Source of the DNA: Heliobacteriaceae bacterium
Lineage (GTDB): Bacteria > Cyanobacteriota > Vampirovibrionia > Gastranaerophilales > Gastranaerophilaceae
Reading direction: 5' to 3'
NCBI GenBank assembly: GCA_031267015.1
Contig: JAIRZW010000106.1
Location: 1 to 11,653, forward strand
Length of the DNA stretch: 11,653 bases
Shown here: positions 1,850 through 11,653 of the stretch, piece by piece
How positions within the stretch are numbered: position 1 is the first letter of the stretch
How the letters are laid out: every line of letters begins with the position of its first letter
The notes under the pieces: generated by a model
Databases searched by the model: none
What the model was told of the DNA's origin: nothing
The model's input: the letters and a program-made list of their open reading frames with translations, nothing else
Program-made: the position numbers and the translations under genes

Positions 1850-1864
1850 ATAACGAAATGTAAC
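1850..1864 (+). promoter_or_regulatory. Shared dyad motif, site 1 (upstream of prepilin gene 1)
   Basis: ATAACGAAATGTAAC, one of four copies of RTWACGRWWTGTAAC in the window, each in front of a prepilin-like gene. Its 3' edge is 14 nt upstream of the -35 and there are 59 nt between it and the ATG, exactly as at site 4. Lying upstream of a weak promoter, it is placed like an activator site. It also sits in the divergent gap to the small ORF at 1694-1828. Confidence 0.65.
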
Positions 1865-1878
1865 AAAGCAATAAAGAA

Positions 1879-1907
1879 TAGACAAACTTGTGATTGTGTG
1901 CTAAGAT
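1879..1907 (+). promoter_or_regulatory. Promoter of prepilin-like gene 1
   Basis: TAGACA (1879-1884), a 17-nt spacer and TAAGAT (1902-1907), the latter preceded by TGC, an extended -10. The -10 is weak (4 of 6). The stretch from GATTGTGTG to the GGAGGT ribosome binding site is nearly the same as in front of prepilin-like gene 4, which supports functional conservation of this promoter. Confidence 0.6.
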
Positions 1908-1923
1908 TTCTGCGGAGGTAAAC

Positions 1924-2559
1924 ATGAATAGAAAAGCATTCACCTTGGCTGAGGTTTTAATTACTTTAGGAATTATCGGCATTGTCGCGGCGCTAACCAT
2001 GCCCGCGCTAATCAGCAGCACACAGAAAAAAGAACTTGAAGCCTGCTTAAAAAAGCAATATTCAATTATGAGCCAGGCATTACAAAAAATGGCGTACGAA
2101 AATGGCAAAGAGGCTTTATCTACGGACTATCCAAACGCTAACGCGTTCAAGTCGGATTTCATGAAACATTTCAAAGTTGCTGATGAATGCCCTCAAAATA
2201 ATTGCGTACCTTACACATTTTGGAAAACATACAACGGAAATAATGTCGGCGACATTTTTGGCGGGCCTCAGTTTATCGCAGCTGACGGAGCGATTTATTT
2301 CTTCTTTTTCGGAAATCCAAGTCAGGCGGTCTATATCGGGGTTGATGTAAACGGATATAAAAAACCTAATAAATACGGATATGATTTTTTCTATTTTAAT
2401 TTACTTGTAGACAACGAAAAACTGATTCCGGGAGGCGCTTCGGGGTCAATACGTCCTGAAGGATTTGATTGTTCCAAAACATCAACCGGAGCATACAATG
2501 GTATTTATTGCACAAATGAAGCCCTGACAAATCCAAACTACTTTAAAAATCTGCCATAG
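1924..2559 (+). CDS. Prepilin-like secreted protein 1 (type IV pilin/pseudopilin leader)
   Basis: A 211-residue protein with a class III prepilin leader: MNRKA, then FTLAEVLITLGIIGIVAALT. A prepilin peptidase (PilD type) would cut between Ala5 and Phe6. Glu at mature position 5, required in pilins for cleavage or assembly, is present. The -1 residue is Ala, not the usual Gly. The hydrophobic helix (about 6-30) is followed by an amphipathic stretch (QKKELEACLKKQYSIMSQAL), a globular domain rich in Gly/Asn/aromatics, and a Cys-containing tail. The start is set at 1924 because GGAGGT is 5 nt upstream; an earlier in-frame ATG at 1894 would place residues ahead of the leader and overlap the promoter. 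It probably forms or decorates a type IV pilus or type II secretion pseudopilus; the exact role cannot be read from sequence. Confidence 0.88.
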   Translation: MNRKAFTLAEVLITLGIIGIVAALTMPALISSTQKKELEACLKKQYSIMSQALQKMAYENGKEALSTDYPNANAFKSDFMKHFKVADECPQNNCVPYTFWKTYNGNNVGDIFGGPQFIAADGAIYFFFFGNPSQAVYIGVDVNGYKKPNKYGYDFFYFNLLVDNEKLIPGGASGSIRPEGFDCSKTSTGAYNGIYCTNEALTNPNYFKNLP

Positions 2560-2595
2560 TAACATAAATTAATAACCACTTGCATTAAGACTTTT

Positions 2596-2625
2596 TTTAC
2601 AATAAACTTAAAACAGCCGTAAAAT
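2596..2625 (+). promoter_or_regulatory. Candidate promoter of rplS-rbgA-rnhB
   Basis: TTTACA (2596-2601), an 18-nt spacer and TAAAAT (2620-2625), each 5 of 6 to consensus, 16 nt before the rplS ATG. No terminator hairpin separates it from prepilin-like gene 1, so read-through from that gene is also possible. Confidence 0.5.
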
Positions 2626-2641
2626 ATAAAGGAAAAGAAAA

Positions 2642-2995
2642 ATGAACCCTGTTATTAACGAATTAGAAAAATCATACTTAAAATCAGATATGCCTGAAGT
2701 TAACCCGGGCGATACCGTAAAAGTTTTCGTGCGGATTATTGAAGGCAACAAAGAAAGAACCCAGGCTTTTGAAGGCACAATAATCAAAAAGCACGGCTCA
2801 GGCATTAATAAAACAATTACCGTTAGAAAAGTATTCCAAGGCGTAGGCGTGGAACGTGTGTTCCTGCTCAACTCACCGCGAATCGAGAAAATTAACGTTC
2901 TTAGACGCGGCGATGTCCGGCGCTCAAAACTTTACTACCTCAGAGAACGCTCCGGCAAAGCTACCCGTATTAAGGAAAAAATCGAAAAGAGATAA
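2642..2995 (+). CDS. rplS: 50S ribosomal protein L19
   Basis: A 117-residue L19, full length for the family. L19 sits at the interface of the 30S and 50S subunits and helps form bridges between them. Recognisable family stretches are [42 protein letters not shown], the [18 protein letters not shown] segment and the basic tail [26 protein letters not shown]. The ATG has AAGGA 8 nt upstream. rbgA starts 3 nt after the stop, so the two are translationally close. The order rplS, ribosome-assembly GTPase, rnhB is a known conserved arrangement. Confidence 0.97.
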
Positions 2996-2998
2996 AAG

Positions 2999-3838
2999 AT
3001 GCCGGATTTTATTCACTGGTATCCCGGGCATATTGCCAAAGCCGAACGGAAATTAAAAGAACAGCTTTCGCTGGTTGATGCGGTGATTGAAGTTTTAGAC
3101 GCGCGGCTTCCGCTTTCGAGCAGTTATGAGAATATCAGCGGGCTTTTGGGCGAAAAACCCCGTCTAATTCTGTTGAACAAATCAGATTTAACCGAGCCTA
3201 AGGAATTAAAAAAATGGATTGCGGCGATTGAAGCCCGCGAAGGCTTTCCTGTGCTTGCGTCAGACGCGAAACATTCCAAAGACTTAAACGCGATTGTCAA
3301 AAAAGCCGCTGAACTTGCCGAACCGCGGATTCAGGCGGCTATGGCCAAAGGTCTTCTGCGCAGACCCGCACGGATAATGGTTGTGGGCATGCCAAACGTG
3401 GGCAAGTCTTCAATTATTAATAAATTAACCCGTTCGTCCAAAACCAAAACTGGCGCCAGAGCAGGCGTAACCCGTCAGCAGCAATGGGTAAGGATTAACC
3501 CGCAGCTTGAACTTCTTGATACGCCCGGCATAATCCCAATGAGGCAGGCCGACCAGCAGCGTGCAAAAAAATTAGCGTTTGTAAATTCGGTTTCTGAAAA
3601 TGCTTACTCAAATGAGGCAGCAGCGCATGCACTGCTAGAGATTCTTCCGGCTGAAAAAGTCAATGAATACTATGGCGGTACAACAATAGAAGACATTGCC
3701 AAAGCGCGCAACTGGCTGGCCTCGGGCGGCAAACCCGACATTGAGCGCACCGCCGTCTATGTTTTAAAAGATTTTCGCGAAGGCAGAATAGGGAAGTTTA
3801 TACTTGACACGTTCCCTCTCCCTTTGGGAGAGGGCTAG
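2999..3838 (+). CDS. rbgA: Ribosome biogenesis GTPase RbgA (YlqF)
   Basis: A circularly permuted GTPase needed for late 50S subunit maturation in Bacillus. The order of motifs is diagnostic: the N-terminal HWYPGHIAKA signature (6-15), DAR (34-36), then G4 NKSD (60-63), then G1 GMPNVGKSS (130-138), G2 Thr158 in GVT and G3 DTPG (174-177). A C-terminal helical domain follows. At 279 residues it is of normal length. The last 8 residues (FPLPLGEG) and the TAG stop come from a hairpin repeat (3814-3846) and do not look like native RbgA sequence, so the original C-terminus was probably replaced. It starts 3 nt after rplS and lies 14 nt before rnhB; all three work in ribosome or nucleic-acid housekeeping and are likely co-transcribed. 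Confidence 0.96.
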   Translation: MPDFIHWYPGHIAKAERKLKEQLSLVDAVIEVLDARLPLSSSYENISGLLGEKPRLILLNKSDLTEPKELKKWIAAIEAREGFPVLASDAKHSKDLNAIVKKAAELAEPRIQAAMAKGLLRRPARIMVVGMPNVGKSSIINKLTRSSKTKTGARAGVTRQQQWVRINPQLELLDTPGIIPMRQADQQRAKKLAFVNSVSENAYSNEAAAHALLEILPAEKVNEYYGGTTIEDIAKARNWLASGGKPDIERTAVYVLKDFREGRIGKFILDTFPLPLGEG

Positions 3839-3848
3839 GGTGAGGGGG
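3814..3848 (+). repeat. Hairpin repeat 1, bridging rbgA end and rnhB ribosome binding site
   Basis: A perfect 9-bp stem, CCCTCTCCC (3814-3822) and GGGAGAGGG (3826-3834), with a TTT loop, is followed by CTAGGGTGAGGGGG. It resembles a short GC-rich hairpin repeat with a GGGTGAGGG tail that I recall from many bacterial genomes. It supplies the last codons and stop of rbgA and the purine-rich GAGGGGG just before the rnhB start. No U-run follows, so it is not a standard terminator. Confidence 0.7.
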
Positions 3849-3852
3849 CAGC

Positions 3853-4518
3853 TTGAATAACCTATTCACTTTCGACCAACAATTCGGCAAAACCATCATC
3901 GGCACAGACGAAGCAGGCCGGGGGCCGGCAGCCGGCGGGGTTTTTGCGTCAGCGGTGTGCTTCCCGCCCCGCTTGCTAAAGAGGGGATTAATGAGGGAGC
4001 TTTCAATTCTGAACGACTCTAAAAAACTCACAAAAAAGCAGCGCGAAAGCATTTACGACATAATTTTAAACGAAACAATCAATTCAACAGTTTGTATTGA
4101 GGTAGAAGAAATCGAGCAAATCAATATTTTAAACGCCTCGTTAAAAGCCATGAAACTGGCCTGCAACAACGTTGTTGCTTCCTTCTCCCCTTGTGAGAAG
4201 GTGGCGAAGCCGGATGAGGGTTTTATTGTATTAATCGACGGAAATAAATTAATAAAGGATTTTAAACACCCCCAAAAATTCATCATCAAAGGCGACGGCA
4301 AGTCTGCGTCGATAGCGGCAGCGAGCGTGCTTGCAAAGGTTACACGCGACAGGTACATGGAGGAGCTTCACGAAAAATTCCCGCAATACAATTGGGCTCA
4401 GAACGCGGGCTACCTGACAGCAGAACACTCAAAGGCCATAGACAAATACGGCTTAACCCCTCACCACCGCCCGTCATTTCTGAAAAAACACTTTGAGAGA
4501 CAGTTGAATTTATTCTAA
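3853..4518 (+). CDS. rnhB: Ribonuclease HII
   Basis: RNase HII cuts the RNA strand of RNA-DNA hybrids and starts removal of single ribonucleotides misincorporated in DNA. The four acidic catalytic residues are present: Asp19 and Glu20 (GTDEAGRGP), Asp129 (VLIDGN) and Asp148 (KGD). LNDSKKL and AAASVLAKVTRD are also typical. The start is TTG: a stop (TGA 3841-3843) lies 9 nt upstream in frame, no ATG occurs until codon 47, and GAGGGGG precedes it at 5 nt. At 221 residues it is about 20 longer than E. coli RnhB. The excess maps to two surface segments (37-49 and 110-122) encoded by hairpin repeats. Its stop overlaps by 4 nt the stop of the convergent prepilin-like gene 2. Confidence 0.95.
   Translation: MNNLFTFDQQFGKTIIGTDEAGRGPAAGGVFASAVCFPPRLLKRGLMRELSILNDSKKLTKKQRESIYDIILNETINSTVCIEVEEIEQINILNASLKAMKLACNNVVASFSPCEKVAKPDEGFIVLIDGNKLIKDFKHPQKFIIKGDGKSASIAAASVLAKVTRDRYMEELHEKFPQYNWAQNAGYLTAEHSKAIDKYGLTPHHRPSFLKKHFERQLNLF
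3963..3999 (+). repeat. Hairpin repeat 2, in frame within rnhB
   Basis: An imperfect hairpin (CCCC ... CTT GCTA AAG ... GGGG, about 3967-3986) is followed by ATTAATGAGGGAG. It encodes residues about 37-49 of RNase HII, between two conserved blocks where E. coli RnhB has a shorter loop. It shares the TGAGGG tail (3992-3997) and orientation with repeats 1 and 3. Confidence 0.5.
4163..4220 (+). repeat. Hairpin repeat 3 with adjacent 16-bp palindrome, in frame within rnhB
   Basis: CCTTCTC (4181-4187) pairs with GAGAAGG (4195-4201), followed by TGGCGAAGCCGGATGAGGG, a tail I recall from a common bacterial hairpin repeat. A perfect 16-bp palindrome (4163-4178) lies 2 nt upstream. The element encodes residues about 110-122 of RNase HII, directly before the VLIDGN block, where the protein is about 12 residues longer than E. 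coli RnhB. Confidence 0.65.
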
Positions 4519-5096
4519 AACTTATACGGATAATCGTCTTTAAACTCAAAATTGTCAAACTCCAAAAATCCGGCACAGAAACGCGAATTGGTCTTACAGT
4601 ATGCAAGCGCTTTTTCACGTGTATCATTTACCGTAGGCCTCGTTGCACACCAGCCTTTCTCACCACACCATTCGCTGCTTTGGGCAGGACAGATTGAAAA
4701 CATGAACCTGTCATATCCGTTGCTATTTGGCCGTTTTTCGGCATTAGTATCAAATACAAAGTCCACACATGCGCCTCTGCTAAAAATAACCTTAGAGCCG
4801 TCTGCAAAATACATAGTATCGTTTGCGTAATTAGTAGAAGTAGTTTTTAAGTAAGGTTTTAAATATTGTTCAAAAAATGCCGATGAAGAAAGCGAGAAAT
4901 CCCATTCTTTAGTTTTTCCGTTTTCAATTTCGGCAAGAAGCACTGCCTGGCTCATCATGCTGTGAAATTTTTTTAATTTGACAGAAACTTCTTTTCTCTT
5001 AAAGTTTTGAATCAATGACGGCATAGTTAAGGCTGCCACAACCCCAATAATACCCAATGTGATAAGTACCTCAGCCAACGTAAAACCTTTTCTCAT
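4515..5096 (-). CDS. Prepilin-like secreted protein 2
   Basis: A 193-residue protein with a textbook class III prepilin leader: MRKG, then FTLAEVLITLGIIGVVAALTM. Prepilin peptidase would cut after Gly4; Phe is mature position 1 and Glu mature position 5. The hydrophobic helix runs to about residue 28. It is followed by the amphipathic NFKRKEVSVKLKKFHSMMSQAV segment and a globular domain with several cysteines (ACVDF, SICPAQSSEWCGEKGWC, YCKTNSRFC) that could form disulfides after export. AGGAG is 5 nt before the ATG. It has its own consensus promoter with a motif copy just downstream of the -10, and lies directly downstream of the XRE gene on the same strand. Its stop overlaps that of rnhB by 4 nt, with no terminator between them. 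Probable type IV pilus/type II secretion-like subunit; partner unknown. Confidence 0.9.
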   Translation of the reverse strand: MRKGFTLAEVLITLGIIGVVAALTMPSLIQNFKRKEVSVKLKKFHSMMSQAVLLAEIENGKTKEWDFSLSSSAFFEQYLKPYLKTTSTNYANDTMYFADGSKVIFSRGACVDFVFDTNAEKRPNSNGYDRFMFSICPAQSSEWCGEKGWCATRPTVNDTREKALAYCKTNSRFCAGFLEFDNFEFKDDYPYKF

Positions 5097-5110
5097 ACCT
5101 TCTCCTATCT

Positions 5111-5125
5111 GTTACGATATGTAAC
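5111..5125 (-). promoter_or_regulatory. Shared dyad motif, site 2 (downstream of -10, prepilin gene 2)
   Basis: GTTACGATATGTAAC on the plus strand, so the motif points against transcription of its gene. Arms are perfect GTTAC/GTAAC. It begins 8 nt after the -10, so it covers roughly +2 to +16, where a bound protein would block initiation or clearance. Site 3 has identical spacing. Confidence 0.75.
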
Positions 5126-5133
5126 CACAAGTA

Positions 5134-5162
5134 ATTATATAAGAAAACTCGGAATTTGTCAA
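5134..5162 (-). promoter_or_regulatory. Consensus promoter of prepilin-like gene 2
   Basis: A perfect TTGACA (5157-5162), 17-nt spacer and perfect TATAAT (5134-5139) on the minus strand. The -35 begins 6 nt past the XRE gene's stop. Such a strong promoter directly followed by a dyad operator suggests a gene that is on by default and repressed. Confidence 0.85.
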
Positions 5163-5168
5163 GTACAT

Positions 5169-5495
5169 TTACACAGAAGTAATGGCTTTAACAACTTTGT
5201 AAATACTTTCGATTTTGTCCCGGTCATCGCGCACACTTTGGATGCTTTGTTGGATTTCTTCAAGCAGGTCTTCTGTGGGCTTGAGGTGGTCGGAGATAAA
5301 AAGCTCGTCAACTGTGACGCCGAGACATTGCAAAATATTTTCCATTGTTTGCGCGGTCATAAAATTTTCGCCCAGCTCAATTCCGCTGAGGGTTCGCGGC
5401 GAAATATTCGTCATTTCAGCGAGTTTCCCTTGCGTAATCCCGCGTTTCTGCCGAAGCCGCTTAATCTTGTATCCGATTTGCTGTTTAATGTCCAT
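5169..5495 (-). CDS. XRE-family DNA-binding regulator
   Basis: A 108-residue protein with one N-terminal Cro/C1-type helix-turn-helix (about 7-66; KIKRLRQKRGITQGKLAEMTNISPRTLSGIELG holds helices 1-3) and a charged C-terminal helix (about 75-105, LLEEIQQSIQSVRDDRDKIESIY) likely used for dimerisation. No metal-binding or peptidase domain follows, so it is a simple phage-repressor-like regulator. It lies immediately upstream of prepilin-like gene 2 on the same strand. That makes it a candidate, but no more than a candidate, for the protein that binds the shared motif; its own promoter lacks that motif. There is no ribosome binding site at normal distance: the -10 ends 6 nt before the ATG. Confidence 0.88.
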   Translation of the reverse strand: MDIKQQIGYKIKRLRQKRGITQGKLAEMTNISPRTLSGIELGENFMTAQTMENILQCLGVTVDELFISDHLKPTEDLLEEIQQSIQSVRDDRDKIESIYKVVKAITSV

Positions 5496-5501
5496 TTTTT
5501 T

Positions 5502-5530
5502 ATTTTATGGCCTTGTGACACAAAAAACAA
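5502..5530 (-). promoter_or_regulatory. Putative XRE promoter with palindrome in the spacer
   Basis: On the minus strand TTGTTT (5525-5530), 17 nt, then TAAAAT (5502-5507), ending 6 nt from the ATG at 5495. The spacer holds a perfect 11-bp palindrome, TTGTGACACAA (5513-5523). The layout suggests autoregulation and a leaderless or nearly leaderless mRNA. The -35 is weak (3 of 6). Confidence 0.5.
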
Positions 5531-5655
5531 TGAGATTAAGTTGTATCAATATGGCAATATATGAGATTAAATTTCAGATTAGCAGCATAACATATTAATT
5601 TTTATTAAGCTGAAAAGCATTGTTGTTTCAATAAAATCAAAATTAATGAGATTAA
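5530..5655. repeat. Three direct copies of ATGAGATTAA
   Basis: The 10-mer ATGAGATTAA occurs at 5530-5539, 5561-5570 and 5646-5655, all in the same orientation, in the AT-rich gap between the divergent XRE gene and the gene at 5758. The first copy abuts the XRE -35. Repeats of this kind are candidate binding sites for a regulator. No ORF of note lies in the gap (5496-5757). Confidence 0.55.
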
Positions 5656-5702
5656 ATATCATATTTATTAGCAATTTTTCTTTTTTTTGATTTTTAATAA
5701 AG

Positions 5703-5719
5703 TTATAACCAGGTTATAA
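5703..5719. promoter_or_regulatory. 17-bp palindrome upstream of the gene at 5758
   Basis: TTATAACC-A-GGTTATAA is a perfect palindrome with a 1-nt centre, ending 38 nt before the ATG at 5758. Each arm contains a TATAAC/TATAAG -10-like hexamer, so it probably overlaps the promoter. No good -35 is seen at 16-18 nt. Candidate operator. Confidence 0.45.
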
Positions 5720-5757
5720 GAGGAAATTTAAAAAAGTCAAAAAAGGAGAAATTAATT

Positions 5758-6546
5758 ATGGTAAACATAGGAAAAATTTTAAACATGGCCATGGCAAATG
5801 GCACTAGATTACGCATGACATTAGTGGGCAAACAGCTTAGAGCTGTGCCTGAACTAAACAATGTATTGAAAGGTATAGCAAATCCAAAAGTACAACTTGC
5901 AGCAAACGGACGCGGCGCATCAGGAGTTGCGGGGATTAGAATTAAATCAGGAAATGAGACATTATTAGAACTGGCAGGCGGGCTTGACCGCTCAAAGGGT
6001 AATCCTATTTTTCAACTTCGCGAGCGAATTCCCAAAGTCGGCAGCGGCAGCGCTATTATGGATATGAACAAACCGTTTCTTGCAGATAATTTTGCAGCAA
6101 GTGTTTCAAGCAAAAAAGGAGTCGTGTCGGCAGCTATTGATTCTGCACCGCTTAAATATAACGCTAAGGTAAATCTTAATGAATCTGAAAATTTCATAAA
6201 CAAATTCAATTTGCCAAAGGACATTAAAGTTAAAGTCAATGAAGTATTCGGCCAATATGAAGAACTTTGCAATCCCAGAAAAGGTAAGCAGATAATGGAC
6301 GGACTTGCCGAAAAAGTAAACGGATTTTTAAACGGAGCATATAAAAAGCCCGGCGTGCAAAAAATCGCAAAGATTTCAGAAGTTAATAAAGCGGAAAAAA
6401 TCGTAGGACCTTCAAAACTTAAATTGGTCAAACGGCTAAAAACAGTGAATCCGGAAGAAATCAAACTTGGCGCAAAAAACGCTAATCTTTTCAAAGACCC
6501 TAACTTCCGTTCGATTGAAGCTCTAAAAAATACAAAACATTCGTAA
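5758..6546 (+). CDS. Unknown basic protein (262 aa)
   Basis: The ORF starts with ATG preceded by AGGAG at 9 nt and ends 15 nt before a strong terminator, so it is a real single-gene unit. The protein is Lys/Asn/Ala-rich and basic, without signal peptide or clear membrane helix. Residues about 25-80 look like alternating short strands with Gly turns (VQLAANGRGASGVAGIRI, ETLLELAGGL). The C-terminal third is strongly basic (PSKLKLVKRLKTVNPEEIKL). Only one cysteine. I do not recognise a family or motif, so no function is proposed. It is divergent from the XRE gene across a gap with repeats and a palindrome, so its expression is likely regulated. Convergent with the TPR gene. Confidence 0.8.
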   Translation: MVNIGKILNMAMANGTRLRMTLVGKQLRAVPELNNVLKGIANPKVQLAANGRGASGVAGIRIKSGNETLLELAGGLDRSKGNPIFQLRERIPKVGSGSAIMDMNKPFLADNFAASVSSKKGVVSAAIDSAPLKYNAKVNLNESENFINKFNLPKDIKVKVNEVFGQYEELCNPRKGKQIMDGLAEKVNGFLNGAYKKPGVQKIAKISEVNKAEKIVGPSKLKLVKRLKTVNPEEIKLGAKNANLFKDPNFRSIEALKNTKHS

Positions 6547-6561
6547 TCTAATTACACCATA

Positions 6562-6593
6562 AAAAAGCGCTGATAAATAATTCAGCGCTTTTT
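6562..6593. terminator. Bidirectional rho-independent terminator
   Basis: A perfect 12-bp inverted repeat, AAAAAGCGCTGA (6562-6573) and TCAGCGCTTTTT (6582-6593), with an 8-nt loop. A GCGCTGA core flanked by an A-run and a T-run works on both strands. It lies between the convergent genes ending at 6546 (plus) and 6595 (minus). Confidence 0.9.
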
Positions 6594-6594
6594 G

Positions 6595-8256
6595 TTATAT
6601 GTCAAACAGCCTGTGGAGGCGGTCGGTAATGTCGTGTTCGTCAAGGTCTTCGGTAAGCTTGTTTAAGTCAATCGCGCGCTGGTAGTAGCGTGCAGCGTCA
6701 TTGATAAACCCAAGCGCATGCGACGCGCGGCCCGCGTTAAAGTATGCGATTGTGTAATTCGGGTTCATGTCGATTGCCTGCTCAAAGTACTCAAGGGCTT
6801 CCATTGGGTCGCCGAACCCGTCGAGGTAAAGAACCCCCAGATTATTATACGAAAACGCATTGTCAGGGTCTAAATCAATGGCCTTGTGAAAGGACACGAG
6901 CGCTTCTTCAATGTAATCCTTTTCCCAGAGCGCCACTCCGGCCTTTTCATAAGCCTTAGCAGTATGCGGTTCAAGCGTAATAGCATCACAATATGCCCGA
7001 ATCGCCTTGTCTAAGTCGTATTCCGACATGTAAATATCACCGAGCGAAATATACAGGTCATAATTTGCCGGGTCAAGTATAATCCCGGCCTGATAAGTCG
7101 ACACTGCCGCGTCCGTATTGCCCTTAATCTCGCCGTAAATCGCGCCAAGCGCCTGACAGACAATAGAAGTCCACTCAGGGTCAGGGTTTAGAGAAACCGC
7201 CTTTTGATAGTGCTCAATTGCTTCGTCGTAAAGTTCTGCTTTTGTGTAGGCGTAGGCAAGCGAGTTATTGTAGAACGGATTTTCCGTGTCGTTTTCAAGC
7301 GCAAGCTTAAACGCGCTGATTGAGTGCAATTTATCCTCTTTTCTCAAATAAAGGTGGCCGAGTTCGTAATAAATTTGCGCAGTATCCATTTTGAATTGCA
7401 AAAGCGTTTCATAGCATTCGATTGCCTCGTCAGTACTTTCAGGGAAAAATGTCTGCAAAACAGTCGCAAGCTTAATCAAAACCTCACGGTTAAGCGGGTT
7501 AGCCTCAAGAGCTTTGCGGTAGCAGCCTACTGTCATTTCAGCTTCTTTGTTTTTCAGCGCCAAATCGCCCATTCTGTTGTAGAAAATTTCTGTGTGCCCG
7601 GTTTCGTCCGCGGCCTTTTTATAAACATTTTCAGCAGCAGGACGAAGCTTAAATTTCTCAAGGAATTTCCCAACCGCATTGAACGAGAACACTGAAAAAT
7701 CATCCGACATGTTTTTGCAGAACATTTTGAGCGAGGGCTTGTCCCATGCCAGCATAAGGCTTCCGGACAGGAAATAATAAACAAAATTCACATAGTCATT
7801 CATGCCTGCGTTTTTGGCATTAATTTTCTGCAAAAGGGTCTGGGACATGATTAATCTCGGGCGGCCCGATTTCATGCGGTTAATTTTTATTGCGGACTTA
7901 AATTCCTTTTCAGCGGCCTGAAAATCCTCGGCCATTTTCATAAAATAGCCTGCATAAAGGTGTGCGTCAGCGCTTTGCGGCGCAAGCGAAACCGCGGTTT
8001 TGCACTGCTCGATAGCAGTGGTAAGACTTATCTGGCCCTGTTCCCACATCAAAGTCGCAAGCCGGTAGTAGGATTCCGGCATTGTGGGGTCGAGCTTAAC
8101 AGCATTAATATAGTATTCAATAGCCTCATCAAGGTCGTTATTATGCTTTCGCAGCAAATAACGCTCGTGCGCGGCTCTGGCTCTTTCCAGCGCGTCAAAA
8201 GCTTTTTGGCTGTTTTCGGGGTTTTTTACAGGTTGCACTAAAATCTGTTCTGACAT
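6595..8256 (-). CDS. Tetratricopeptide-repeat protein (553 aa)
   Basis: A cytoplasmic-looking protein without signal peptide or membrane segment, built almost wholly of TPR units. Clear 34-residue repeats end in patterns such as A-(I/V)-x-L-x-P: DEAIEYYINAVKLDPTMPES, TAIEQCKTAVSLAPQSADAH, DEAIEHYQKAVSLNPDPEWT, DKAIRAYCDAITLEPHTAKA, EEALVSFHKAIDLDPDNAFS and MEALEYFEQAIDMNPNYTIA. About a dozen units are visible. A non-TPR hydrophobic insert (about 145-175, MNDYVNFVYYFLSGSLMLAW) separates the first three from the rest. No catalytic domain is attached, so it is likely a scaffold for protein-protein contacts; partners are unknown. GGAG lies 10 nt before the ATG, and a possible -10 (TACAAT, 8305-8310) is about 48 nt upstream without a good -35. 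Confidence 0.92.
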   Translation of the reverse strand: MSEQILVQPVKNPENSQKAFDALERARAAHERYLLRKHNNDLDEAIEYYINAVKLDPTMPESYYRLATLMWEQGQISLTTAIEQCKTAVSLAPQSADAHLYAGYFMKMAEDFQAAEKEFKSAIKINRMKSGRPRLIMSQTLLQKINAKNAGMNDYVNFVYYFLSGSLMLAWDKPSLKMFCKNMSDDFSVFSFNAVGKFLEKFKLRPAAENVYKKAADETGHTEIFYNRMGDLALKNKEAEMTVGCYRKALEANPLNREVLIKLATVLQTFFPESTDEAIECYETLLQFKMDTAQIYYELGHLYLRKEDKLHSISAFKLALENDTENPFYNNSLAYAYTKAELYDEAIEHYQKAVSLNPDPEWTSIVCQALGAIYGEIKGNTDAAVSTYQAGIILDPANYDLYISLGDIYMSEYDLDKAIRAYCDAITLEPHTAKAYEKAGVALWEKDYIEEALVSFHKAIDLDPDNAFSYNNLGVLYLDGFGDPMEALEYFEQAIDMNPNYTIAYFNAGRASHALGFINDAARYYQRAIDLNKLTEDLDEHDITDRLHRLFDI

Positions 8257-8383
8257 TTATAAGAGCTCCATAAGGTGTGTTATCCATGCTTTCGGCCTAA
8301 TTGAATTGTACCTTTATTAATTACATGGAAAATCATACAAATGGAGTAGAGTTGTGTACATTGCCGGGATGGTTAATATTTAC

Positions 8384-8412
8384 TTGACAAACTCCCGAAT
8401 TTCTTATACAAT
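8384..8412 (+). promoter_or_regulatory. Promoter of prepilin-like gene 3 (decayed)
   Basis: TTGACA (8384-8389), a 17-nt spacer and TACAAT (8407-8412). The layout, spacing to the following dyad (8 nt) and ribosome binding site context (CAGATAGGAGA) match prepilin-like gene 2, so the two promoters are paralogous. It is intact although the gene behind it is broken. Confidence 0.8.
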
Positions 8413-8420
8413 TGCTGATA

Positions 8421-8435
8421 GTTACAAACCGTAAC
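8421..8435 (+). promoter_or_regulatory. Shared dyad motif, site 3 (downstream of -10, prepilin gene 3)
   Basis: GTTACAAACCGTAAC; read on the minus strand it is GTTACGGTTTGTAAC, fitting RTWACGRWWTGTAAC against the direction of transcription, like site 2. It starts 8 nt after the -10 and ends 15 nt before the old ATG. Confidence 0.75.
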
Positions 8436-8450
8436 AGATAGGAGAAAAGT

Positions 8451-9213
8451 ATGGTCAACCATAGGGCAAGCCGTGCATGTAGTAACAGTAAACGGCGGGA
8501 TATCCGGTGCAACAGATGCGCAAGACTTTGTAGAAAACCACTTGAGAGAACAGATAAAAATTCTCAAGACGTGCGACAATGCTAACTTACGCAGTTGCGG
8601 TATTGAAACAGACACAAATGCTATAAAAACGCTGGCCGGAACTTCTACGACTATGCCAAAGGCGCTTCATAGTTTGACAACAAGTATGTCAAATGGAGAA
8701 ACAACAAACATCAACACCACAAGCTACGGTTTTGTGATGGCGAATGGCTATTCGGTGAACTTATTTTACAACCCTAAGTGCCTGCCGGACGACCCTGTCT
8801 CAAGTTGGCACTATGGCCAAGATAGAGTGTGTGTAAACGCTATTTACGATATGAATGGCCTTGGAAGACCAAATCAGGTAGGAAAGGACATAGGATTTGT
8901 AACAGTACTTTATCCTAACGAAACATCGGTAGCTTATGCACCTGATGTTGTTGGCAATGCAGCAGTAACTTCTACCTTCAATGCGGCCCCTCAAGCTTGT
9001 ACAGACCAGAACCCTGATTATTCGCTTCCGAACAGAGACGAACTGCTTGCAATGTATATGAACATGAATATCTTAGGAATTCCATATAGTCACGGCATCT
9101 GGTCAGCCTCTGAGATCTCTCCAGAGTTAGTTTGGTACCAGAATTTCACCAATGGCTCCCGCACCCAAGGCGCCAAAGCCAATCCTGGCGACGTTCGGTG
9201 CGTCAGGAGATAA
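8451..9213 (+). pseudogene. Prepilin-like gene 3 with deleted leader; C-terminal DUF1566-like domain
   Basis: The promoter, operator, AGGAGA and ATG (8451-8453) match those of prepilin-like gene 2. From the ATG, however, the frame ends after 44 codons (TAA 8583-8585). The real frame is +1 and reads WSTIGQAVHVVTV directly at 8452. That aligns with HSMMSQAV (residues 45-52) of prepilin-like gene 2 and YSIMSQAL of gene 1. About 43 leader and helix codons are therefore missing, with loss of frame. The remaining frame has no ATG, GTG or TTG before GTG 8473, which would yield 246 residues without a leader. The C-terminus (PNRDELLAMYMN, GIWSASEIS, LVWYQNFTNGSRTQG, NPGDVRCVRR) resembles the DUF1566/Lcl C-type-lectin-like fold. 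Possibly a recent deletion, an assembly error, or a cytosolic remnant from GTG 8473. Confidence 0.78.
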
Positions 9214-9313
9214 GCTCAATATATTAAGGAATGTAATAATTACCGCGTCTGCAAGCAATTTATGCTCCTCAAAATTCGTTTAATTATATAGGGGAATTAA
9301 CACAGGAATTACC

Positions 9314-10834
9314 ATGAGAATATCAGCTCTGAAAATGCTTGCATACTCTGCTATGGCAGCGGCAACAGCCGCAGGTTTTGCCGCATGCTCAAAAAAGAAA
9401 GATGAGTACGAAAATTATATTATACGAAAAGGCGATAACCCGAACGAACTTGCCAACAGATATTTGCTTCCTCTTGACAAGTTCAAGAAAGAAGTACACA
9501 TACCTGACTCTTTTAGAGCCGGGGATACGCTAAGAATACCAAAGTCAATATTCGAACGGCAGGTAAAAGACACTATTTATACAGTGAAAAAGGGCGACAC
9601 TTACTACGAGCTTTCAAACAAAAACGGTCTGGGCGTAAACGAATTTGCAAACCGCGCCGGACTGAATCCGGAGAAAGACATGCTAAAAGCCGACATAACT
9701 GCAATAAATCTCAGCGGAATTGTTCCTGTCAAGGCGAAAAATTATACCGTGAAAAAAGGCGATACGTTTGCGGGTTTGGCAGCTAAATTCAATTTTGTAA
9801 AAGAAGACGGCACGCCTGATGTTGAGGCGTTCAAGGAATACGCCGGCGTAAACAAACTGAAAAAAGACAACGAAATATATGTTCCGACAATTGCACAGAA
9901 ATCGGGCATGACTTTTTGGAGTATTGCAAGCTCAAACGGCATGGCGCAATCGGAATTGGAAGAATTAAACCCGCAAATCTCTGACGCTGGCGCAATCACG
10001 GAAAACATGCGCATAAACGTTCCTTACAAGCCGTTTGATTCAGATTATTCACCGGTCGTTTCAGATGAAACGCCGCAGAGTTCAACCATAAAATTCTCTA
10101 TTGCAAAGCCGAAACAGCCTTTGAAAAACGGACATCCGGCGGCAGAGGAGGAAGTGCGGCCGTCAACTAATCCAAAAGGGTCTTTAGCGGGCAAGACGAT
10201 TATTGTAAACGCCGGACACCATTGGGGAAACCGCTGGGACCCGGGTGCTACGGTCGGCGATGCTCAGGAATGGGAATATAGCAGAATTTTGGCGGACAAA
10301 TTGGCCAACAAGCTGTGTGCACAGGGTGCAAAGGTCGTTTTCTGTTCAGGTTCAGCCAAACTGATTGAAGGCGTGAAAACAAAATACCGCACTAATTGTG
10401 CGGCATTTGTATCAATTCATACTAATGCGCTTGAGCTTGACCCGAATAAAATTCTTAAACAAGAACAAAAACGCAACAAAAAATATACCCTTGCAGACGC
10501 TAAGAAGCAAGCAGCATACAATGCTACGGTTAAGCGCGCAGAGATACTACATTACGCGGGAACAGGCAAAAAACCGAATACGAAGAGTATAAATTTTGCC
10601 AAAAACCTCGTAAATGATTATCCGGGCACATGTCTGTTTAAAAGAGATAACGAAGGGCAGCACTCAAGGCTCGGGGTGCTTCGTACGGAAGAACATATTC
10701 CGTCAATTATGCTTGAAGCAGGATTTTTGTCAAACAAAGATGACCTTGCGAATTTACGCAGTTCAGCACATCAGGACAAAATCACAGAATACCTTGCAAA
10801 AGGTGTTGCCGCACAGTTTGGCGTGAAAAAATGA
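9314..10834 (+). CDS. LysM-repeat lipoprotein N-acetylmuramoyl-L-alanine amidase
   Basis: A 506-residue exported enzyme that would cut the bond between MurNAc and the peptide stem of peptidoglycan. The N-terminus is a lipoprotein signal with lipobox GFAAC (Cys25). Three LysM peptidoglycan-binding units follow (about 35-76, 88-133 and 144-191; motifs YTVKKGDTYYEL and YTVKKGDTFAGLA), plus a fourth, degenerate one (198-238). After a Pro/Ser linker comes an Amidase_3 domain (about 292-504). Likely zinc ligands are His302 (NAGHHWG), Glu319 or Glu321 and His369 (SIHTNA), with catalytic Glu468 (IMLEAGFLSN). The usual Asp in DPGHGG is Asn here. A roughly 50-residue Lys-rich insert (about 372-425) follows SIHTNA. 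AGGA precedes the ATG at 7 nt. It stands alone, ending 5 nt from convergent higA. Likely role: cell-wall remodelling or daughter-cell separation. Confidence 0.93.
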   Translation: MRISALKMLAYSAMAAATAAGFAACSKKKDEYENYIIRKGDNPNELANRYLLPLDKFKKEVHIPDSFRAGDTLRIPKSIFERQVKDTIYTVKKGDTYYELSNKNGLGVNEFANRAGLNPEKDMLKADITAINLSGIVPVKAKNYTVKKGDTFAGLAAKFNFVKEDGTPDVEAFKEYAGVNKLKKDNEIYVPTIAQKSGMTFWSIASSNGMAQSELEELNPQISDAGAITENMRINVPYKPFDSDYSPVVSDETPQSSTIKFSIAKPKQPLKNGHPAAEEEVRPSTNPKGSLAGKTIIVNAGHHWGNRWDPGATVGDAQEWEYSRILADKLANKLCAQGAKVVFCSGSAKLIEGVKTKYRTNCAAFVSIHTNALELDPNKILKQEQKRNKKYTLADAKKQAAYNATVKRAEILHYAGTGKKPNTKSINFAKNLVNDYPGTCLFKRDNEGQHSRLGVLRTEEHIPSIMLEAGFLSNKDDLANLRSSAHQDKITEYLAKGVAAQFGVKK

Positions 10835-10839
10835 TTAGC

Positions 10840-11130
10840 CTAAACCGCTCTGTAAACAACCTCTACATTATCAAGGTTTACATTTTGTTTTGCATGCCAT
10901 AAATCGTACTGCACCTGCATTCTCAGCCAAATTTCAGCAGAGGTGCCAAGGGCCTTAGAGAGCTTTAAAGCCATTTCAGGGCTTATACCTGTTTTGCCGT
11001 TAACTATTTCAGACAAATTTTTACGGCTTGTGCCGATTTTGAGCGCAAACTCCGAAACAGTAAAGTTAAGCGGTTTAATCCAGTCTTCAAGAAGTATTTC
11101 GCCTGGGTGACAAGGGTTATACATTTCCAC
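10840..11130 (-). CDS. higA: HigA antitoxin (XRE type)
   Basis: A 96-residue antitoxin of the HigA/VapI family that binds and neutralises HigB and represses its own operon. Family marks are the N-terminal NPCHPGEILLEDWIKPL, the helix-turn-helix (FTVSEFALKIGTSRKNLSEIVNGKTGISPEMALKLSKALG) and the AEIWLRMQVQYDLWHAK segment. The start is set at GTG 11128-11130 because AGGA is 7 nt upstream; ATG 11124 (94 residues) is possible but 13 nt from that site. It follows higB by 16 nt on the same strand, the toxin-first order typical of higBA. The gene ends 5 nt from the amidase stop on the other strand. Confidence 0.94.
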   Translation of the reverse strand: MEMYNPCHPGEILLEDWIKPLNFTVSEFALKIGTSRKNLSEIVNGKTGISPEMALKLSKALGTSAEIWLRMQVQYDLWHAKQNVNLDNVEVVYRAV

Positions 11131-11146
11131 ATTTATATCCTTTCTT

Positions 11147-11425
11147 TTAGTGATAATCAAGATAATCAACTATATATGCATTTTCATCCTCAAACTCAAA
11201 GATTATCCGCCAATTTCCGTTTACTGTTACCGACCAGAGGCCTTTTAGCTTGCCTTTTAACTGATGTAATCTATAATTTGGCGATTTGAATTCTTTCAGG
11301 TCTGAAGTCATGCTCAAAGCAGTTAATATACGTCGCAGCTTAACTGTATGCTCTGCCTGTATACCTTTAATACTGCCTGTCAAATAGAATTTTTCAAGAC
11401 CTTTGTGTTTGAAAGATTTAATCAT
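11147..11425 (-). CDS. higB: HigB toxin (RelE-like mRNA interferase)
   Basis: A 92-residue toxin of the HigB/RelE superfamily that cleaves mRNA on the ribosome. It fits the family across its whole length: IKSFKHKGLEKFYLTGS at the N-terminus, KLRRILTALS, YRLHQLKGKLKGLWSVTVNGNWRIIF and the C-terminal VDYLDYH. The start is set at ATG 11423-11425, which gives the family's usual MIKSF beginning; upstream in-frame starts would run through the promoter. No Shine-Dalgarno is present: the consensus -10 ends 6 nt before this ATG, so the mRNA probably starts at or next to the A of the ATG. Confidence 0.95.
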   Translation of the reverse strand: MIKSFKHKGLEKFYLTGSIKGIQAEHTVKLRRILTALSMTSDLKEFKSPNYRLHQLKGKLKGLWSVTVNGNWRIIFEFEDENAYIVDYLDYH

Positions 11426-11431
11426 ACATTT

Positions 11432-11460
11432 ATTATAACCTATAACGTTACAGGTGTCAA
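11432..11460 (-). promoter_or_regulatory. Consensus promoter of higBA
   Basis: A perfect TTGACA (11455-11460), 17-nt spacer and perfect TATAAT (11432-11437) on the minus strand. With the -10 ending 6 nt from the higB ATG, initiation about 7 nt downstream falls on the start codon, which implies a leaderless transcript. Confidence 0.85.
11439..11454. promoter_or_regulatory. Probable HigA/HigBA operator
   Basis: CCTATAACGTTACAGG is a 16-bp palindrome with a single mismatched base pair, filling the spacer between the higBA -35 and -10. Antitoxins of this type autoregulate by binding such promoter-core palindromes. Confidence 0.7.
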
Positions 11461-11471
11461 GCATTATGTAT

Positions 11472-11486
11472 ATTACGGATTGTAAC
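11472..11486 (+). promoter_or_regulatory. Shared dyad motif, site 4 (upstream of prepilin gene 4)
   Basis: ATTACGGATTGTAAC, same orientation as transcription and with exactly 59 nt between motif and ATG, as at site 1. It is also 11 nt upstream of the higBA -35, so a bound protein could touch both divergent promoters. A further GTTAC half-site lies at 11496-11500. Confidence 0.65.
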
Positions 11487-11500
11487 AATGCGGCTGTTAC

Positions 11501-11529
11501 TGTACAATTTTTAGATTGTGTGGTAATAT
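11501..11529 (+). promoter_or_regulatory. Promoter of prepilin-like gene 4
   Basis: TGTACA (11501-11506), a 17-nt spacer and TAATAT (11524-11529) with an extended-10 TGG before it, in register with the promoter of prepilin-like gene 1. An alternative, TTGTAA (11480-11485), 17 nt and TACAAT (11503-11508), would overlap the dyad; conservation with gene 1 favours the first. Confidence 0.5.
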
Positions 11530-11545: not shown

Positions 11546-11653
11546 ATGAAAAACGCATTCACATTGGCAGAAGTGTTAATTACATTGGGAATTATTGGAA
11601 TTGTTGCAGCATTGACTCTGCCAAATATTATTGCAAATGTTAAATACAAGAAA
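11546..11653 (+). CDS. Prepilin-like secreted protein 4 (N-terminus only)
   Basis: The first 36 codons of a further prepilin-like gene run off the right edge. GGAGG lies 5 nt before the ATG. The leader is MKNA, then FTLAEVLITLGIIGIVAALT, with Ala at -1 and Glu at mature position 5, nearly identical to prepilin-like gene 1. The 5' leader region is conserved with gene 1 from the -10 to the ATG. The rest of the protein, and therefore its type, is not visible. Confidence 0.92.
   Translation, partial: MKNAFTLAEVLITLGIIGIVAALTLPNIIANVKYKK

Follow-up and report, generated by a model that had tools for sequence, protein, structure and literature searches.

We use computational sequence analysis to study a short DNA motif at the prepilin genes of a Gastranaerophilaceae genome, starting from a stretch of 11,653 nucleotides (contig JAIRZW010000106.1 of assembly GCA_031267015.1, deposited as Heliobacteriaceae bacterium), which we call the window. 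The window is one contig (C62) of the assembly of its own genome, labeled G000, which comprises 1.008 Mb in 206 contigs and is 57% complete. We find that a 15-bp motif, RTWACGRWWTGTAAC, is real and marks most of the prepilin genes found in G000, where it stands at two fixed positions relative to the promoter. By its sequence the motif looks like a variant of HLR1, a switch used in light acclimation by photosynthetic cyanobacteria. We think it probable, judging from the sequence, that the motif is an HLR1-type site bound by an OmpR-family regulator of the RpaB/RpaA lineage, most likely RpaB, with the promoters of one position (class B below) activated and those of the other (class A) repressed.

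The genome-wide counts are far from what chance would give. Scanning G000 with at most one mismatch yields 60 motif sites, of which 21 are exact, while the reversed control gives a single site. The prepilin leader pattern is found in the same assembly at 80 exact and 18 one-mismatch places, and 45 of the 60 motif sites (18 of the 21 exact ones) lie no more than 400 nt upstream of such a place; 44 leaders are marked in this way, 43 of them among the 80 exact. Of the 15 other sites, one belongs to a leaderless gene in the window, two follow class A promoters (the first close to where a contig ends, the second with no leader match nearby), five are in other promoters (loci L013, L111, L112, L115 and L024), and seven fall in none of these groups. 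For counts by gene, we took 83 distinct leader genes from the fetched stretches of G000, covering all 80 exact places and part of the 18 one-mismatch places (the sets used for class assignment and for upstream-motif counts differ slightly, with 82 genes common to both by leader sequence). With up to two mismatches and within 200 nt upstream, the motif is present at 45 of the 83 genes, as compared to 0.15 in mononucleotide shuffles, and GTTACA is present upstream of 62 of the 83, as compared to 10.4 expected. A first-pass annotation of the window, made from its letters alone, had predicted that its scattered prepilin-like genes belong to one regulon, and the genome scan bears this out to the extent that a single cis-regulatory motif stands at most prepilin genes found in G000.

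In the window itself, exact matches to RTWACGRWWTGTAAC lie at 1850-1864 (+), 5111-5125 (+), 8421-8435 (-) and 11472-11486 (+), just where the first-pass annotation had placed them, and the search for further exact copies returns none, again as claimed. At up to two mismatches the count rises to five, whereas 200 shuffles average 0.58 and never give as many as five. The copies are indeed close to gene starts, with motif-to-ATG gaps of 59, 14, 15 and 59 nt. Other details of that description need correction: 10 rather than 11 of the 15 positions are invariant (positions 1, 3, 7, 8 and 9 vary), and the GTTAC-N5-GTAAC dyad seen in the motif is complete at 5111 and 8421 but not in the other two copies, which have ATAAC or ATTAC. 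The copies had also all been assigned to prepilin-like genes; a prepilin-like body does stand behind the copy at 8421, but the FTLAEV leader is absent there.

The four copies form two pairs of unlike architecture: copies 1 and 4 stand 14 nt 5' of the -35 box (class B), and copies 2 and 3 just 3' of the -10 box (class A). Copy 1 is a class B site at 1850..1864 (GTTACATTTCGTTAT in its minus-strand reading), 14 nt upstream of the -35 box of a promoter predicted on the plus strand at 1879..1907 (-35 TAGACA at 1879-1884, 17-nt spacer, -10 TAAGAT at 1902-1907, by class alignment). The plus-strand prepilin gene that follows (1924..2559) has the leader MNRKAFTLAEVLITLGIIG, and its product matches PF07963, the type IV prepilin N-terminal methylation leader, at 24.7 bits, above the cut-off. 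Copy 4, at 11472..11486 (GTTACAATCCGTAAT, likewise a minus-strand reading), holds the same 14-nt distance from the -35 box of a predicted plus-strand promoter at 11501..11529 (-35 TGTACA at 11501-11506, 17-nt spacer, -10 TAATAT at 11524-11529, also by class alignment), and the prepilin gene behind it (11546..11653, plus strand, leader MKNAFTLAEVLITLGIIG) runs off the contig and is judged a prepilin from its leader alone. Copy 2 is a class A site on the minus strand at 5111..5125 (GTTACATATCGTAAC in gene sense), 8 nt from the -10 box of a predicted minus-strand promoter at 5134..5162 (-35 TTGACA at 5162-5157, 17-nt spacer, -10 TATAAT at 5139-5134) and 14 nt from the ATG of the minus-strand prepilin gene at 4515..5096, which has the leader MRKGFTLAEVLITLGIIG and whose product (5096-4515) matches both PF07963 and PF20318 above cut-off. 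Copy 3 is a class A site on the plus strand at 8421..8435 (GTTACAAACCGTAAC in gene sense), again 8 nt from the -10 box of a predicted plus-strand promoter (8384..8412; -35 TTGACA at 8384-8389, 17-nt spacer, -10 TACAAT at 8407-8412). In both class A copies the site is followed by AGATAGGAG and then by ATG. Behind copy 3, however, the ATG at 8451 opens a frame of only 44 codons (stop at 8583-8585), and a leaderless prepilin-like body is open in another frame from 8473 to 9213. The product of 8473-9213 has no PF07963 leader match and a weak match to Lcl_C (E 6.8e-5, below cut-off), and the plus-strand gene at 8451..9213 looks like a decayed prepilin gene that has kept its promoter.

The same two positions recur throughout G000 (transcription starts are inferred here from -10 boxes). 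A regular expression that demands the motif places 45 of the 83 genes in class A, 14 genes with an upstream TGTAAC form class B, and 24 are left. In class A, the site begins 9 nt after the -10 box (8 nt between the two), and this fixed offset puts it at the expected transcription start; it has one orientation relative to the gene and an asymmetric center. In class B, 14 nt separate TGTAAC from the -35 box, so that the site lies at about -64 to -50. Reading the 24 leftover genes shows five with class A-like promoters that differ in having another start codon, an extended leader or a weaker site (L015, L048, L059, L084 and L116), and one, L105, with a class B-like promoter and a weakened site. 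Because the class A expression fixes motif columns, we also made a promoter-anchored count: TTGAC with a -10 box 16-18 nt on is found at 58 of the 83 genes, and TTAC stands at one fixed offset past that -10 box in 46 of the 58.

A separate feature of these genes is the length of the pre-leader, the stretch before the leader F. It is 10-48 residues in 22 of the 45 class A genes and 4-5 in the other 23; no class B gene (0 of 14) clearly has a long one, and there may be two or three long ones among the 24 unclassified genes. The added DNA sits between the first codons and the FTLAEV leader and consists mostly of a palindromic repeat, or what is left of such a repeat, read in frame and bounded by GTCATTGCGAG...CTCGCAATGAC or GTCATTCTGAG...CTCAGAATGAC (for example in L009, L011, L023 and L058), with another type of insert in L010 and L016. 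Prepilin leaders are removed before pilus assembly, and the site may therefore tolerate a repeat at little cost; the class A pre-leader may be a place where palindromic repeats can insert cheaply.

Comparison to known regulatory sites leads to HLR1. In the excerpts available of this and the other papers cited here, HLR1 is given as KTTACAWW-N2-KTTACAWW and is bound by RpaB, which activates from about -66 to -45 and represses over -38 to +23 (PMC13421787); a second paper gives the same consensus, with activating sites about 50-100 nt upstream (PMC11633204). The prepilin motif shares with this regulon of photosynthetic cyanobacteria the GTTACAWW core, the second half-site 10 nt on and the two positions, with class B at the activating position (upstream of the -35 box) and class A over the start. 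Unlike HLR1, its second half in G000 is mostly GTAAC, GTAAT or GTAAA instead of KTTACA. Allowing mismatches to HLR1, 3 of the 83 prepilin upstream regions match at up to one and 35 at up to two, the latter against 2.35 in shuffles. The first-pass annotation had known of no described regulon with this motif; the wider family of sites does fit one, HLR1 being the box of the cyanobacterial OmpR-family regulator RpaB.

Strict HLR1 sites are also abundant around this lineage. Elsewhere in G000 there are 13, against 1 for the control, and strict HLR1 exceeds the reversed control in every one of 40 family genomes. In a phylum sample, 47 family genomes hold 969 strict sites against 142 in the control. 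The positive control is a set of 66 genomes from other parts of the phylum, with 432 sites against 51 and an excess over the reversed control in 56 of the 66. Relatives carry perfect HLR1 boxes at a class B-like position. Promoter boxes known from the relatives can be seen, by reading, downstream of several of the strict HLR1 sites of G000; an automatic promoter classifier recognized 4 of 12 such sites (8 unclassified) and left 24 of 27 sites unclassified in the same-genus genome G001. This genome has 44 strict HLR1 sites, 30 of them given as loci. Many of these (L437-L465) are followed, by reading, by a common promoter form of another kind, and several stand with ATAGG or ATAGC tandem repeats before varied genes; the G001 protein behind the HLR1 site in L449 is similar by eye to a window protein of no known family (5758-6546).

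The motif's own core connects the prepilin sites to these boxes. Of 60 family genomes, 31 (counting G000) contain the pattern GTTACAWTTCGTWAY, and outside G000 there are 54 sites, as compared to 3 for the reversed control. Among the 49 of these 54 that we examined, the end is GTTAC in 27, GTAAT in 15, GTAAC in 6 and GTTAT in 1. All 27 GTTAC-N5-GTTAC direct repeats carry the A that HLR1 has at position 16, which the search pattern does not demand, and 25 of the 27 fit strict HLR1. A TGAAAT-like box follows 15 nt on at 23 of the 49 sites and TAAAG 17-18 nt on at 11, with neither at 15, and these set distances indicate that the upstream position is conserved. In the family the motif recurs at genes other than prepilins, as it also does before non-prepilin genes in G000. 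Proteins of the MGLxASQARxL type are encoded in 11 of the 49 relatives' loci and in four of G000 (L013, L112, L115 and L429); Pfam searches found no domain in either an MGLSASQARLL protein truncated where its contig ends or 60 residues of a relative's protein. The exact string GTTACATWTCGTAACAGATAGGAG had no match in a scan of a genome contig collection, which may leave out the window's own genome.

RpaB itself is widespread in the order. We searched the output-domain family in 24 genomes of the order and, among the matches listed, find RpaB (80.8-94% identical to that of G001) in at least 20 of the 24, G001 included: at least 12 of 15 in the same family and at least 8 of 9 others. Three RpaB proteins that we tested, that of G001 among them, score 361.8-362.9 bits and pass the NCBIfam RpaB cut-off of 330. 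The G001 protein is 70% identical to Nostoc RpaB and identical to it over the stretch DTRVVDVHISRLR, which we take to be the recognition helix.

In the mechanism we propose, the prepilin sites of G000 would be bound by a response regulator of the OmpR family from the RpaB/RpaA lineage, with RpaB the likeliest candidate. At class B promoters (window copies 1850 and 11472) the regulator bound upstream of the -35 box would activate, and at class A promoters (copies 5111 and 8421), bound at the expected start, it would block RNA polymerase. The two sets of prepilin genes would then answer one signal, one set rising as the other falls. This departs from the expectation that every gene of the regulon reacts in the same way, since effects of opposite sign are predicted from the two positions in the promoter. 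What we observe is the motif, its enrichment, its two positions, its resemblance to HLR1 and the presence of RpaB in the order; what we infer is which protein binds, in which direction it acts at each class and what signal it conveys.

Several observations weigh against this reading. Strict HLR1 is found at none of the 83 prepilin upstream regions, which is why we call the prepilin sites HLR1-like and not HLR1. At the middle base of the second half-site, G000 favors an inverted repeat, and the last bases of the class A site overlap the ribosome-binding site. HLR1 enrichment is absent in three same-class genomes outside the order (1 site, 3 in the control), and 10 of the 66 genomes elsewhere in the phylum are not above control. 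The G000 assembly, 57% complete, yielded no RpaB, nor was RpaB seen among the examined loci of G005 (93% complete), G006 (75%) and G028 (99%), with one further above-cut-off regulator match each in G005 and G028 left unread; G005 has 26 HLR1 sites against 2 in the control, though RpaB is not among its examined loci. Conservation at the prepilin promoters of relatives, which the first-pass annotation had named as a way to refute its regulon, does not hold up either. Among the 65 leader genes in the fetched loci of G001, none has the motif upstream within two mismatches, and GTTACA stands upstream of only 2, as compared to 8.1 expected; the motif is likewise absent, at up to two mismatches, from the prepilins examined in G002 (7 of 7), G008 (9 of 49) and G045 (4 of 6, two leaders having too little upstream sequence). 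The link between prepilins and motif is therefore lineage-specific, as far as examined.

The prepilin sets of these genomes vary widely in size. They are very large in G000 (80 exact leader places in 1.0 Mb), G001 (65) and G008 (49), with only 7 leaders in G002 and 6 in G045. Upstream of the leaders, G or C runs some 8 to 10 long are seen in six of the nine G008 loci examined (L215, L227, L231, L235, L241 and L243), and one leader of G000 (L072) is preceded by a similar run; these are possibly phase-variable tracts.

A different binder could use the same HLR1-related sites, whether a response regulator of RpaA type or some other OmpR-family member encoded in the genome. In fact the search of G000 yielded a single OmpR-family regulator, and it is RpaA-like. 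Its best solved-structure match is RpaA, it scores 206.8 bits and so falls below the NCBIfam RpaB cut-off of 330, and it is 88-93% identical to its first ten matches in a named genome collection (labeled Candidatus Gastranaerophilales in five cases, uncultured bacterium in three, and Candidatus Scatousia and Cyanobacteria bacterium in one each), by which the organism appears to be one of the Candidatus Gastranaerophilales. The departure of the prepilin sites from strict HLR1 in their second half would also suit this idea, as would reports from S. elongatus that RpaA and RpaB compete for shared promoters (PMC13421787) and that the minor pilin genes pilA3 and pilW are under phosphorylated RpaA (PMC7125226); the excerpt available of PMC5785211 yielded no consensus for RpaA or RpaB. 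Against it, 25 of the 27 direct repeats with the same core in relatives are strict HLR1, the RpaB consensus, and the RpaA-like protein does not share the RpaB sequence where it aligns to DTRVVDVHISRLR. We regard RpaA as the binder as somewhat unlikely.

The first-pass annotation had itself proposed an unrelated dimeric regulator that reads the sites as a true inverted repeat, and the arms of the G000 prepilin sites, mostly GTTAC with GTAAC, GTAAT or GTAAA, look the part. The asymmetric center and the single orientation in class A do not, and the simple dyad picture is incomplete: the 27 of 49 same-core sites in relatives that are direct repeats, extended by the A of HLR1, are the reason why we do not favor a simple palindrome. 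An unrelated regulator of this kind is improbable.

It could also be asked whether the class A motif acts not as a DNA site at all but through a hairpin at the mRNA 5' end, given that it lies at the expected mRNA start and that GUUAC and GUAAC can pair; a leader carrying the most frequent site folds at -3.8 kcal/mol using this very stem. However, the stem is absent in all three variant leaders that we folded. Across 45 genes (picked by a regular expression that fixes positions 2-5 and 13-14), positions 1 and 15 pair in 32 and positions 5 and 11 in 36, with no compensation at 5-11. In class B and in relatives, moreover, the motif is found 5' of the -35 box. These two points, uncompensated loss of pairs and a location ahead of -35 boxes, lead us to reject the hairpin, which is very improbable. 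Functionless hitchhiking of the motif on prepilin genes copied with their promoters would fit the likeness of class A promoters (mean spacer identity 0.59) and of window copies 2 and 3, which lie within 69-nt stretches that are 81% alike, but pure promoter copying is unlikely, and as the whole explanation hardly credible, because the mean identity between pairs of promoters is 0.34 immediately 5' of the -35 box and 0.96 in the first half-site (motif columns being inflated by the selection expression) and because the promoter-anchored count of 46 of 58 is free of that bias; the motif also stands before non-prepilin genes of G000 and of relatives.

Some neighboring features of the window may also be noted. 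Copy 4 is adjoined by a HigB-like toxin gene (11147-11425) and a helix-turn-helix antitoxin-like gene (10840-11136). At 1287-1547 there are two 88-nt direct repeats, 90% alike, one of which holds a perfect 23-bp inverted repeat (1487-1535). At 5556-5665, upstream of a helix-turn-helix regulator gene (5169-5495), there are two 25-nt repeats with ATGAGATTAAAT, 84% alike.

Regulation of prepilins by the RpaB/RpaA lineage has a partial precedent. In S. elongatus, beyond the control of pilA3 and pilW by phosphorylated RpaA, the sigma factor SigF2 is a target of both RpaA and RpaB (PMC7125226), so the same regulator lineage already reaches minor pilin genes there; unlike in that case, the G000 motif stands directly at some 60 prepilin promoters. 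The targets in G000 also set it apart from the HLR1/RpaB regulon of photosynthetic cyanobacteria, being prepilins and other genes in a lineage reported to be non-photosynthetic (PMC3787301). RpaA and RpaB have been reported in Melainabacteria (PMC3787301, PMC4040986, PMC5877343), as has the sensor kinase NblS (PMC3787301, PMC4040986); the three were noted in 2013 and 2014, and the 2013 paper suggests that they may have another function there (PMC3787301). In the excerpts available these reports name no targets, and in the open-licence literature searched, as far as its text was accessible, we found no report linking HLR1 to the Melainabacteria or Gastranaerophilales lineage.

The sites of G000 are thus concrete candidate targets for the RpaA and RpaB of Melainabacteria. 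What would be new is the presence of direct sites at dozens of prepilins, together with a candidate role for the regulator without photosynthesis; since minor pilins are already tied to RpaA in S. elongatus, the proposal is less surprising than it would otherwise be. We tentatively entertain a wider scenario, in which RpaB regulates surface and envelope genes in gut Gastranaerophilales and has been newly wired to dozens of prepilins as a two-way switch, with class B on and class A off when it is bound and the reverse on its release. This would be a possible case of one regulator turning part of a very large set of pilins up and another part down. The likeness of the motif to HLR1 suggests a possible role for RpaB in an organism without photosynthesis, and the sites offer a way to ask what this regulator did before photosynthesis or does without it. 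Should targets of this kind prove ancient, regulation of the cell surface would be older than that of photosynthesis.

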